In this document: positions 5,278-16,593 of the stretch, piece by piece | How positions within the stretch are numbered: the stretch's first letter is position 1 | Layout: every line of letters starts with the position of its first letter | Assembly (NCBI GenBank): GCA_026225115.1 | Contig: JAMFSE010000109.1 | Coordinates: 1 to 33,890, forward strand | DNA: 33,890 nucleotides | From: Rhodovastum atsumiense | GTDB taxonomy: Bacteria > Pseudomonadota > Alphaproteobacteria > Acetobacterales > Acetobacteraceae | Direction: 5' to 3' | The notes under the pieces: generated by a model | Told to the model about the DNA's origin: nothing | The model's database searches: none | What the model saw: only the letters and a program-made list of their open reading frames with translations | Translations under genes and position numbers: made by a program

Positions 5278-7278
5278 ATGATCATTTCCGCGCCTGCACT
5301 CCTCATCGACGGCGCATTCACCGGGCCCGCCGCTTTGCTGATCGAAAACGGTCTGATCACGACCATCCTGCCCGGCATCCCGGATAACCCGGATATCCGC
5401 CTCGAACACGGGGTTCTGTCTCCCGGCCTGATCGACCTGCATAACAACGGCGCCTTCGGGGTCGATTTCAGCACCGCCACCGGCGCGGAATTCGATCACG
5501 CCATCACTCGCCTGGCCGAACACGGCGTCACCAGCCTGCTGCCCACCATCATCACCGCGCCCTTGAACGCTTTGGCCAATTCCGCCGGCATCATTGCCGA
5601 AGCATCCGCCCGCCACCCCGGGATTCTCGGCCTGCATCTGGAAGGTCCGTTTCTGGCGCCGCCGAAAAACGGTACCCACCGCGCCGATTGGCTGCAGGCA
5701 TTCTCCCCTGAAACACTCAGCTATCTGCTGGCAATTCCCGGCCTGCGCCTGGTCACGCTGGCGCCCGAAATCCCAGGCGCGCTTGCCATCATCGAACAGC
5801 TTGCAAACGCCGGGATCATCGTCGCCCTCGGCCACACCGCCGCCACCGCCGCGCAAACCGCCGCCGCCGCAACCGCCGGCGCCCGGCTGGTCACCCATGT
5901 CTTCAACGCCCAATCGCCGCTGCACCACCGCGCCCCTGGCGTGCCGGGCGCTGCCCTGACCGACAAACGCCTGTTCCCCTGCCTCATCGCCGACGGCGTG
6001 CATGTCGACCCCATCATCCTCAAACTCGCCTTCGCCGCCTCCCCCAACGCAATCGCCGTCACCGATTCCATCCTCGCCGCCGGCATGCCGGAAGGCTTCG
6101 AGGCGCAATTCGGCGGCGAAAAAATCATCCTGAAGAACGGCGTGGCCCAACAGCAGAACGGCACCATCGCCGGCGCCGCCATCACTTTGGATGAAGGCAT
6201 CCGCCGGCTCATCGCCGCCGGCATTTCCCCGCAAACGGCCCTGGCCGCCGCCACCGAACGCCCCGCCGCCGCCATGCGCCTGACCGACCGCGGCCGCATT
6301 GCCCCCGGGCAGCGCGCCGACCTTGTCTGGTGGAATGTTGATTTTACCGTCGCCGAGGTCTGGCGCGCAGGCCAAACCCCCGCCATCTCCGCACCCGCCC
6401 CCAAAGGCACGGAATACGCCCGCCCAGACCTGCATGATCTGGACGGACGACCAACGCTCGAAATCGTCCAGACCTTCTTCACCCAGGAAGCCGCCGCACA
6501 ACGCGCGCTAACCGCCGCCGCACCCAGGCTCGCCGCCTTGGCCGATGCCGCCGCTTTAAGGCTGCAGTCCGGCGGCCGGCTATTCTACGCCGGCGCCGGC
6601 ACCTCCGGCCGCCTGGCGCTGCTGGACGCCGTCGAATGCGGCCCGACCTTCGGCGTCGGCCCTGAGACCATAATTCCGCTCCTGGCCGGGGGCGACACCG
6701 CTTTTCTGCACGCCGTCGAAGGCGCTGAGGATAATGCGGCCGCTGCCATAGAAACGCTGACGGCCCATAACTTCAACGCCAAAGACGCGCTGGTCGGCAT
6801 CGCCGCCTCCGGCCGAACCCCATTCACGCTGACCGCCATCACCCATGCGCGCGCGCTCGGCGCACTCACCGGCGCCATCGTCAACAACCTCGCCTCGCCG
6901 ATCGCAGCCGCCGCCGAAATCGCGATCGAAATCAACTCCGGCCCCGAGATCATCGCCGGCTCCACGCGCCTGTCCGCCGGCACCACCCAGAAAATCGCGC
7001 TGAACATTCTGTCCTCGACCGTCATGATCCGCCTCGGCAAAACCCACGGCCCCTATATGGTCGACGTCCGCGCCACCAACGAAAAACTGATCCGCCGCGC
7101 CACCCGCATCACCGCAACGCTGGCAGAAGTCACCGAACCCGAAGCGCAAGCAGCACTTGCCGCCGCCAACATGCACGTAAAAACCGCCATTTTGATACTA
7201 CGCTTAGGTATCACCGCAGCGGAAGCATCCAGAATTCTGCAGACATCAGGCGGAAGTTTACGAAAAGCACTTAGCTAA
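5278..7278 (+). CDS. nagA-murQ: Fused N-acetylglucosamine-6-phosphate deacetylase / N-acetylmuramic acid-6-phosphate etherase
   Basis: One uninterrupted 666-codon frame carries two complete enzymes. Residues 1 to about 365 are NagA. Metal and catalytic positions are H55-x-N57 (SPGLIDLHNNG), E122 (HLEGPF), H186 (LGHTAAT), H207 (THVFNA) and D263 (VTDS); from E122 on, their spacing closely follows E. coli NagA. Residues 378 to 666 are MurQ, a SIS-fold lyase, with the signature GAGTSGRLALLDAVECGPT (E453), EGAED (E481/E484), GIAASGRTP and STRLSAGTTQK. Only about a dozen residues (QTPAISAPAPKG) join them. MurQ cleaves MurNAc-6-P to GlcNAc-6-P plus D-lactate, and NagA deacetylates that product to GlcN-6-P, so the fusion links successive steps of peptidoglycan recycling in the cytoplasm. 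No clear ribosome site precedes the ATG. It is divergent from the chemoreceptor genes. Confidence 0.93.
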   Translation: MIISAPALLIDGAFTGPAALLIENGLITTILPGIPDNPDIRLEHGVLSPGLIDLHNNGAFGVDFSTATGAEFDHAITRLAEHGVTSLLPTIITAPLNALANSAGIIAEASARHPGILGLHLEGPFLAPPKNGTHRADWLQAFSPETLSYLLAIPGLRLVTLAPEIPGALAIIEQLANAGIIVALGHTAATAAQTAAAATAGARLVTHVFNAQSPLHHRAPGVPGAALTDKRLFPCLIADGVHVDPIILKLAFAASPNAIAVTDSILAAGMPEGFEAQFGGEKIILKNGVAQQQNGTIAGAAITLDEGIRRLIAAGISPQTALAAATERPAAAMRLTDRGRIAPGQRADLVWWNVDFTVAEVWRAGQTPAISAPAPKGTEYARPDLHDLDGRPTLEIVQTFFTQEAAAQRALTAAAPRLAALADAAALRLQSGGRLFYAGAGTSGRLALLDAVECGPTFGVGPETIIPLLAGGDTAFLHAVEGAEDNAAAAIETLTAHNFNAKDALVGIAASGRTPFTLTAITHARALGALTGAIVNNLASPIAAAAEIAIEINSGPEIIAGSTRLSAGTTQKIALNILSSTVMIRLGKTHGPYMVDVRATNEKLIRRATRITATLAEVTEPEAQAALAAANMHVKTAILILRLGITAAEASRILQTSGGSLRKALS

Positions 7279-15000: not shown

Positions 15001-16593
15001 ATGACCGAACAAAACCCCCCTGCTGCAAGCGCGGCTGCACCTGCACAGATCTCCTGGCCTTTCCGCGAAGCCGAGCGCGTCGCCGAAAGATTGAAGCAAA
15101 CCGGCAAAACCCACGCTTTGTTCGAAACCGGCTACGGCCCCTCCGGCCTGCCGCATATCGGCACCTTCGGCGAGGTCGCGCGCACCACCTGGGTGCGACG
15201 CGCCTTCACCGAACTGACGGGCCTGCCATCGCGCCTGCTGGCCTTCTCCGACGACATGGACGGACTGCGCAAAGTCCCGGACAACGTGCCCAACAAGGAA
15301 ATGCTGAAGGAATTCATCGGCAAGCCCCTCACGCAGGTGCCGGACCCGTTCGGCACCCATTCTAGCTTCGGCGCGCATAACAACGCACGCCTGCGCAGCT
15401 TTCTCGATTCGTTTGGATTTGACTACGAATTTGCCTCCTCCAGCGAATACTACTTTTCCGGCCGTTTCGACGAAGCGCTGCTGCACGTGCTGGCAAACCA
15501 CGACAAAATCATCGACATCATCCGCCCGACGCTTGGCCCCGAACGCCGCGCCACCTATTCGCCGATCCTGCCCATCCATCCGCGCAGCGGCATCGTCATG
15601 CAGGTGCCGATCCAGCAGGTGGATGTGGAATCCGGCACGGTCATGTGGACCGACCCCGAAACCGGCACGCGCTTCGAGACCGAAGTCACCGGCGGCTCCG
15701 CCAAGCTGCAATGGAAAGCCGACTGGGCCATGCGCTGGTATGCGCTCGGCGTCGATTACGAAATGTCCGGCAAAGACCTCATAGATTCGGTAAAACTCTC
15801 GTCTGCCATCGTCCGCGCCTTGGGCAAGGAACCGCCTGTCTGCCTCACCTATGAACTGTTCCTGGATGAACACAGCCAGAAGATTTCAAAGAGCAAAGGC
15901 AACGGCCTCTCGGTCGAGGAATGGCTGAAATACGCGCCGCCGGAATCCCTCGCGCAGTTCATGTATCACGCCCCGCAGCGCGCCAAGCGCCTGTTCTTCG
16001 ACGTTATCCCCCGCGCCGCCGACGACTACATCAACAACGTCGCCGCCTTACGCGAATCAACCGACCCGCACGCCAACCCGGCCTGGCATATCCTCGGCGG
16101 CAAAGATTCTGCCGCCGCCGGCAGCCCCATCGGCTTCACCATGCTGCTCAACCTGGCCTCGGTCATCAATGCCGACAGCCCTGAAATGCTCTGGGGATTC
16201 ATCAACAGCTACCTCCCCGGAACCACCCCGGAGAACTTCCCGTTCCTCGCCAATCTGGTCGATTACGCCATCGCCTACTACCAGGATTTCGTCGCCTCCA
16301 AAAAACAGTTCCGGCAGCCCACCGACATCGAACGCGGCGCCCTGTTCGACCTCGCCGGCTCGCTGCGCCACCTCTCCGAACATGACAGCCCCGAAACCAT
16401 TCAGAACCTGGTTTACGCCGTCGGCAAACGCCACCCCTTCACGCCGCTCAAAGCCTGGTTCGACTGCCTCTACCAGGTCCTCCTCGGCCAGGTCGAAGGC
16501 CCCCGCTTCGGTGGCTTCATCGCCCTCTACGGCATCGAGCGCACCGTAAAACTAATCGAGGGCGCGCTGGCAAGGGAAGACGAGGCCGCTTGA
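15001..16593 (+). CDS. lysK: Class I lysyl-tRNA synthetase
   Basis: A 530-aa class I enzyme charging tRNA-Lys, of the archaeal and alphaproteobacterial type rather than the class II LysS of most bacteria. The Rossmann signatures are present: a HIGH box at H52-I-G-T (GLPHIGTF) and a KMSKS-type box K294-I-S-K-S. Other familiar segments are [17 protein letters not shown] and SGKDLIDSV, with the C-terminal anticodon-binding helical part. GGAGCG precedes the ATG by about 7 nt. No class II lysS is in the window, so this is presumably the only lysyl-tRNA synthetase, which cannot be confirmed here. A copy of the terminator-like repeat follows the stop directly. Confidence 0.96.

Follow-up and report, generated by a model that had tools for sequence, protein, structure and literature searches.

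The window, meaning the whole stretch of 33,890 nucleotides that was analysed, contains a nagA-murQ fusion gene at positions 5278-7278 on the forward strand, as defined by the ORF list and family models. The open reading frame starts with ATG, encodes a protein of 666 amino acids (666 codons plus stop) and has no internal stops. The N-terminal NagA half (residues 1-372, positions 5278-6393, forward strand) has an amidohydrolase fold and is a predicted GlcNAc-6-phosphate deacetylase, with metal and substrate positions at H55, N57, E122, H134, H186, H207, R218, H242 and D263. The MurQ half (residues 377-666, positions 6406-7275, forward strand) has a SIS fold and is a predicted MurNAc-6-phosphate etherase, with key positions at E453, EGAED 481-485 and K572. 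The linker (residues 369-376, positions 6382-6405, forward strand) has pLDDT values below 50 and differs in length and sequence between species. An earlier note on this DNA had described a single 666-codon frame holding a full NagA and a full MurQ, and this description is borne out, with family models matching both halves and the fold aligning with both. The residues it named (H55/N57, E122, H186, H207, D263, E453, EGAED and STRLSAGTTQK) are all located where it had placed them, and its count of about a dozen joining residues is roughly right, the fold alignments of the halves covering residues 1-372 and 375-666.

The fusion gene is flanked by two opposite-strand genes, for a chemotaxis receptor and a biotin carboxylase, and a promoter scan gave one weak match upstream of it. 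The window also carries a tRNA-Thr (TGT) at positions 168-242 and, at positions 15001-16593, a class I type lysyl-tRNA synthetase (PF01921) that adjoins an opposite-strand helicase gene (Helicase_C_2).

The NagA half matched the NCBIfam model TIGR00221 (nagA) over residues 18-359 with 258.3 bits, which is above the cut-off of 225.65. The score for the narrower NagA equivalog model PRK11170 (205 bits) lies under its cut-off of 483, and the predicted NagA membership is therefore claimed at the level of the broad family only. The NagA fold spans the full length of the half. Residues E122, H186, H207 and D263 align with E131, H195, H216 and D273 of E. coli NagA (E. coli numbers counted on the alignment), and D263 aligns with the position at which 2p53, the D273N entry, carries N. 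We take these four E. coli residues to define the metal and catalytic site of NagA. The positions of this site are in part those given in the available portion of PMC6016474, which describes NagA as dimeric, the substrate lying where the two subunits meet and its phosphate being contacted by an arginine of the partner subunit, and in some enzymes by a neighbouring histidine. By our own reading, the window has H217-R218 at the position of the partner arginine; R218 is invariant in set A1, and H217 nearly so. Given this interface-bound substrate of NagA and the retention of R218, the fusion should at least dimerise.

The MurQ half scored above the cut-offs of both PRK05441 (murQ; residues 378-665, 346.5 versus 168) and PRK12570 (314.4 versus 255), and its predicted membership is claimed for the family of these two models. 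The score for the MurQ equivalog model TIGR00274 was 296.5, slightly below the cut-off of 302; this model matches 25 of the 25 fusions of set A1 at E <= 1e-20. The MurQ fold spans the full length of the half, and E453 and E481/E484 presumably correspond to the catalytic residues Glu83/Glu114 of E. coli MurQ, which is a dimer.

Conservation was analyzed in a set of 41 sequences, consisting of the window and 40 other fusions with NagA parts longer than 300 and MurQ parts longer than 240 amino acids. Identical sequences were kept once; contig-cut rows and L078 (genome G443, with a broken NagA half) were left out, and L007 was kept despite its cut start. Residues N57, E122, H134, H186, H207, A211, R218, H242, D263, E453, E481 and E484 are identical in all 41 distinct fusions. 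In 3 of the 41, H55 is replaced by Q, as found in E. coli NagA, and 7 have T in place of N210 (E. coli N219). Estimates of dN/dS by the Nei-Gojobori method for 12 hand-chosen near pairs were 0.11-0.25 for the NagA half and 0.12-0.28 for the MurQ half, and the NagA and MurQ distance matrices over the 41 fusions were correlated (Mantel r 0.89, with 0 of 999 permutations as high). Given the invariant positions, the low dN/dS values and the correlated distances, neither half is drifting. Both halves are under purifying selection.

Within the genus of the window, 33 of the 36 other genomes gave a match, all 33 with a one-frame piece spanning the join, and the three genomes lacking a match are 81-85% complete. 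The scan of 397 genomes of the GTDB family, including its own, yielded matches of at least 52% identity over the join in at least 27 genomes; among the matches listed, 14 were in g1 (window's included), 12 in the 13 matched g369 genomes and 1 in g300. No match covering both halves was obtained in a sample of 24 genomes from other families or in the remaining 384 of the 385 class genomes sampled. Among the listed matches lacking stops in the phylum scan, a sample of 398 genomes, both halves were covered only in the window's genome. In the class, family and phylum scans at most three candidates per genome were scored, a fused match being assumed to rank first. The plasmid scan gave two records with one place covering at least 80% of the query, and at the three top places (H1-H3, of which H1 and H2 were inspected) the two enzymes are annotated as distinct features.

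Weak matches that cross the join (34-48% identity by our own reading of the table, for example G635 at residues 260-665, G492, G565, G545 and G184) were not fusions where inspected, and nagA was a separate gene in all five weak-match loci inspected (G635, G492, G565, G184 and G557). Long MurQ frames in G908, G1009 and G1089 were likewise rejected as NagA fusions, the partner being a BadF-type kinase-like domain (typed in G1089, which is locus L112, and judged by eye in the others). MurQ was found behind such a domain at L057:2371-4236, L112:2144-4051, L113:1108-2988 and L114:1993-3852, in frames of 620-636 amino acids; typing of the kinase half covered L057 and L112, where the NagK_SO3507 model scored below its cut-off in both, and L113 and L114 were judged by eye.

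The join can be followed beyond the window. No stop or frameshift is present near positions 6380-6410, where the earlier note had asked whether resequencing might break the frame, and the frame runs uninterrupted through the join in 41 distinct homologous sequences. A pattern scan of contigs from close relatives located the same join in the named isolates Acidocella aquatica, A. aromatica, A. aminolytica, A. facilis and Acidiphilium rubrum. In A. facilis, a 1211-aa stop-to-stop frame was considered as evidence of a third domain and rejected, the upstream part being Arg-rich and, as judged by eye, resembling a non-coding frame. The fixed stoichiometry that had been proposed for the fusion is upheld in the window, since one polypeptide implies 1:1 synthesis and the internal-start scan found no ATG, GTG or TTG among the linker codons that could serve as a separate MurQ start. 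ATG or GTG occurs in the scanned stretch of 35 of 46 rows, with the anchor misplaced in several (L021, L023, L025-L027, L048 and L059 among them), and the result for the window is the one relied on. A separate MurQ start may be used in other fusion-bearing species, many of which have such codons in the linker.

A HIT gene is located directly upstream of the fusion in 6 of 9 mapped loci of the Acidiphilium group (typed by Pfam in L055), ending 4-7 bases before the ATG of the fusion in the four loci that were read. The genes preceding it resemble a his operon (hisE typed, the others by our own reading). In the Acidocella-type loci, a small gene group, c19, follows the fusion in 7 of 11 mapped cases and c32 in 4 of 11; no Pfam match was obtained for the c19 and c32 genes in L041 (10033-10548 and 10567-11007). 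The fusion frame is whole although its neighbours are not the same in the window, in other Acidocella and in Acidiphilium; thus, the neighbourhood varies and the join stays. We conclude that the join is genuine and kept by selection.

Two genomes depart from this pattern. In G610, of the Acidiphilium group, MurQ stands alone (L083:4893-5915) where relatives carry the fusion, directly behind a gene from the cluster to which the HIT gene upstream of the relatives' fusions belongs. The G610 MurQ falls inside the Acidiphilium fusions in the MurQ tree, the junction has a repeat-like stretch, and another contig encodes a distant NagA (282 bits). We interpret this as a loss of the NagA half. The case of G610, with its lone MurQ, shows that the join can be dispensed with. 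In G443 (g300, a third genus group; L078:4604-6695), the NagA half is broken and the MurQ half is open. This break could be decay or an assembly error, the latter being possible because it is seen in one genome of about 150 contigs.

Phylogenetic trees were inferred for both halves by a quick method that gave long-branch warnings, with SH-aLRT as the only support for the MurQ tree. In that tree, into which the MurQ halves of L078 and of the contig-cut L030 and L084 were entered as fused rows, the fused rows and G610 form one branch (SH-aLRT 90). This branch joins the pair L057/L058 at 89, and the pair itself is grouped at 99. In the NagA tree, from which L078 was left out and in which the contig-cut L054 was counted as fused, four separate nagA genes are placed beside Acidocella at 88, and two changes are needed as the tree is drawn. 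One clade of fused rows was not rejected by the AU test (p 0.494), a result that does not by itself establish one clade. Acidisphaera sp. L21 (L058) has separate nagA and murQ genes, with an 8-nt overlap if murQ starts at the chosen ATG (9891), and an AnmK gene comes after them. This arrangement is likely to picture the state before the fusion. We infer that a single origin is most likely, in which neighbouring nagA and murQ genes became joined in an Acidocella/Acidiphilium ancestor.

The fusion is the one match above the TIGR00221 cut-off in the window's genome (only matches over cut-off were counted; all 14 control genomes give a match, 7 of them over cut-off), and the P0001 search likewise gave one match in all there; the fusion is the sole match of each kind in that genome. 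AnmK was found above cut-off in 16 of 16 genomes searched, with 455.5 bits versus 352 for the copy in the window's genome, and an AmpG-type transporter in 6 of 6, the window's genome included. NagZ of the window's genome scored 223.7 bits versus a cut-off of 207. No match to a BadF-type kinase was obtained in this genome, which is 98.8% complete, and NagB was not found there; its PF01182 match is a 6-phosphogluconolactonase, as are those of G034 and G512. Its NagB-II matches are GlmS, the main one, and the MurQ half itself. The cut-off of the NagB-II model NF046059 was reached in 0 of 8 genomes and 0 of 14 controls and is thus no yardstick, and in the other genomes that carry the fusion, NagB-II matches were assessed from frame length alone. 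Since NagB was not found, wall synthesis and not glycolysis is the most likely destination of GlcN-6-P from the fusion. The single ROK kinase match of the window's genome is below every equivalog cut-off shown (fructokinase, 374.7 versus 443; N-acetylglucosamine kinase, 248.8 versus 380), and this kinase could make free GlcNAc-6-P.

Taken together, the completeness of the halves, the retained active sites, the purifying selection, the sole copies in the window's genome and the presence of the partner genes suggest that the fusion is likely a bifunctional peptidoglycan-recycling enzyme, both activities being predicted from sequence and modelled fold. According to the available portions of PMC5371407, PMC6016474 and PMC13041923, MurQ converts MurNAc-6-P to GlcNAc-6-P and D-lactate, and NagA converts GlcNAc-6-P to GlcN-6-P and acetate. 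The point of the earlier note that consecutive steps of peptidoglycan-sugar recycling are joined agrees with the reactions of MurNAc recycling in the parts available of PMC5371407 and PMC13041923. In the proposed route, AnmK would make MurNAc-6-phosphate from anhydro-MurNAc, the C-terminal MurQ half would strip off D-lactate to give GlcNAc-6-phosphate, and the N-terminal NagA half would strip off acetate to give GlcN-6-phosphate. The latter would feed GlmM and new cell wall, if flux runs in the direction assumed here.

The benefit of the join may be a fixed 1:1 supply and a high local concentration, with GlcNAc-6-P removed as it is made, for which we see a nearly even prospect. In Caulobacter, the two nagA genes could not be deleted together, and a build-up of GlcNAc-6-P was suggested to be possibly toxic, according to the available portion of PMC13046382. 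Given this suggestion, quick removal of GlcNAc-6-P is a plausible gain; the NagB-based cause of toxicity proposed for Caulobacter would not apply here, because NagB was not found.

A serious, if somewhat doubtful, candidate is that the gene boundary was lost by chance and that the fusion, both enzymes still working, is kept only because both are needed, with equal dosage as the gain at most. The overlapping nagA-murQ pair of a relative, the poorly conserved linker and the retention in G610 of MurQ without its NagA half are all consistent with such a neutral event, whereas the intact frame in two genera, despite differing neighbour genes, argues against it.

It is unlikely that the fusion performs true product hand-over, in which the active sites lie opposite one another and GlcNAc-6-P is passed on without entering the cell pool. 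The consecutive steps, the single chain and the short linker would suit hand-over, and paired NagA and MurQ dimers could keep the sites close. However, the AlphaFold model (mean pLDDT 89.5) has a pTM of 0.59 and pLDDT below 50 at residues 369-376, the linker, and at 562-565, within the STRLSAGTTQK stretch; the low pTM and the low-confidence linker therefore give no confident arrangement of the two active sites. The linkers differ in length and sequence among species, and the ROK kinase may supply free GlcNAc-6-P, open to the NagA half from solution, which also argues against hand-over. We similarly consider it improbable that two dimer-forming enzymes are locked in a higher-order assembly that takes in MurNAc-6-P and releases GlcN-6-P while hardly any GlcNAc-6-P is set free, in bacteria that lack NagB. 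If true, what was a shared metabolic branch point would have become a one-way unit dedicated to recycling, and G610 would be a natural control with the halves split.

The glucokinase regulatory protein (GKRP) is a relative of MurQ, and Pfam GKRP models match the MurQ half. It is nevertheless very improbable that one half has turned into a non-enzymatic regulator or scaffold of this kind, since the catalytic positions are retained in 41 of 41 fusions, no separate copy was found in the window's genome to take over the reaction, and the match to GKRP is far poorer than those to bacterial MurQ structures. That the join is an assembly or sequencing artefact, as the 149 contigs of the window's assembly might suggest, is refuted by the identical join in independent genomes of two genera, leaving a practically negligible chance.

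On the preferred reading of a bifunctional enzyme, two steps of cell-wall sugar recycling would be tied in one molecule across two acid-loving genera, Acidocella and Acidiphilium. NCBI places a third genus, Acidisoma, in the Acidocellaceae. The relatives with separate genes and the one with a single half offer a clean test of whether joining alters flux or the GlcNAc-6-P level. Automatic annotation may name a fused gene of this kind after just one of its halves. No description of a NagA-MurQ fusion was met in the open-licence literature, represented mostly by titles and the beginnings of abstracts, and the available portions of PMC13046382, PMC11980594, PMC5371407, PMC6016474, PMC5061867 and PMC13041923 make no mention of one.

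Among known structures, NagA of E. coli (1ymy/2p50/2p53) and of M. smegmatis (6fv3/6fv4) share the whole fold and the metal and substrate positions with the NagA half. MurQ of H. influenzae (4lzj/4m0d/1nri) and of Y. enterocolitica (4s12) share the whole SIS fold and the conserved residues with the fusion. Each of the matched PDB chains of NagA and MurQ covers one half, and none covers both. Unlike free MurQ, the MurQ of the fusion sits behind NagA: residue 11 of 4lzj aligns with window residue 375, and about the first ten residues of 4lzj have no counterpart in the fusion.

Among gene arrangements, Acidisphaera (L058) has the same two enzymes in touching or overlapping genes, but as two proteins, and is the only case among the loci inspected in which a free murQ comes directly after nagA. 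The genes are likewise separate, and touching or overlapping, in Haliovirga abyssi and several Acetobacteraceae, in the order murQ then nagA. In the BadF-type kinase-MurQ fusions of an Acetobacteraceae MAG (L057) and of other Pseudomonadota (L112-L114), MurQ is likewise the C-terminal half, but the partner is a BadF-type kinase-like domain and not NagA. Thus, since such fusions occur besides those with NagA, MurQ has been joined to at least two different partners.
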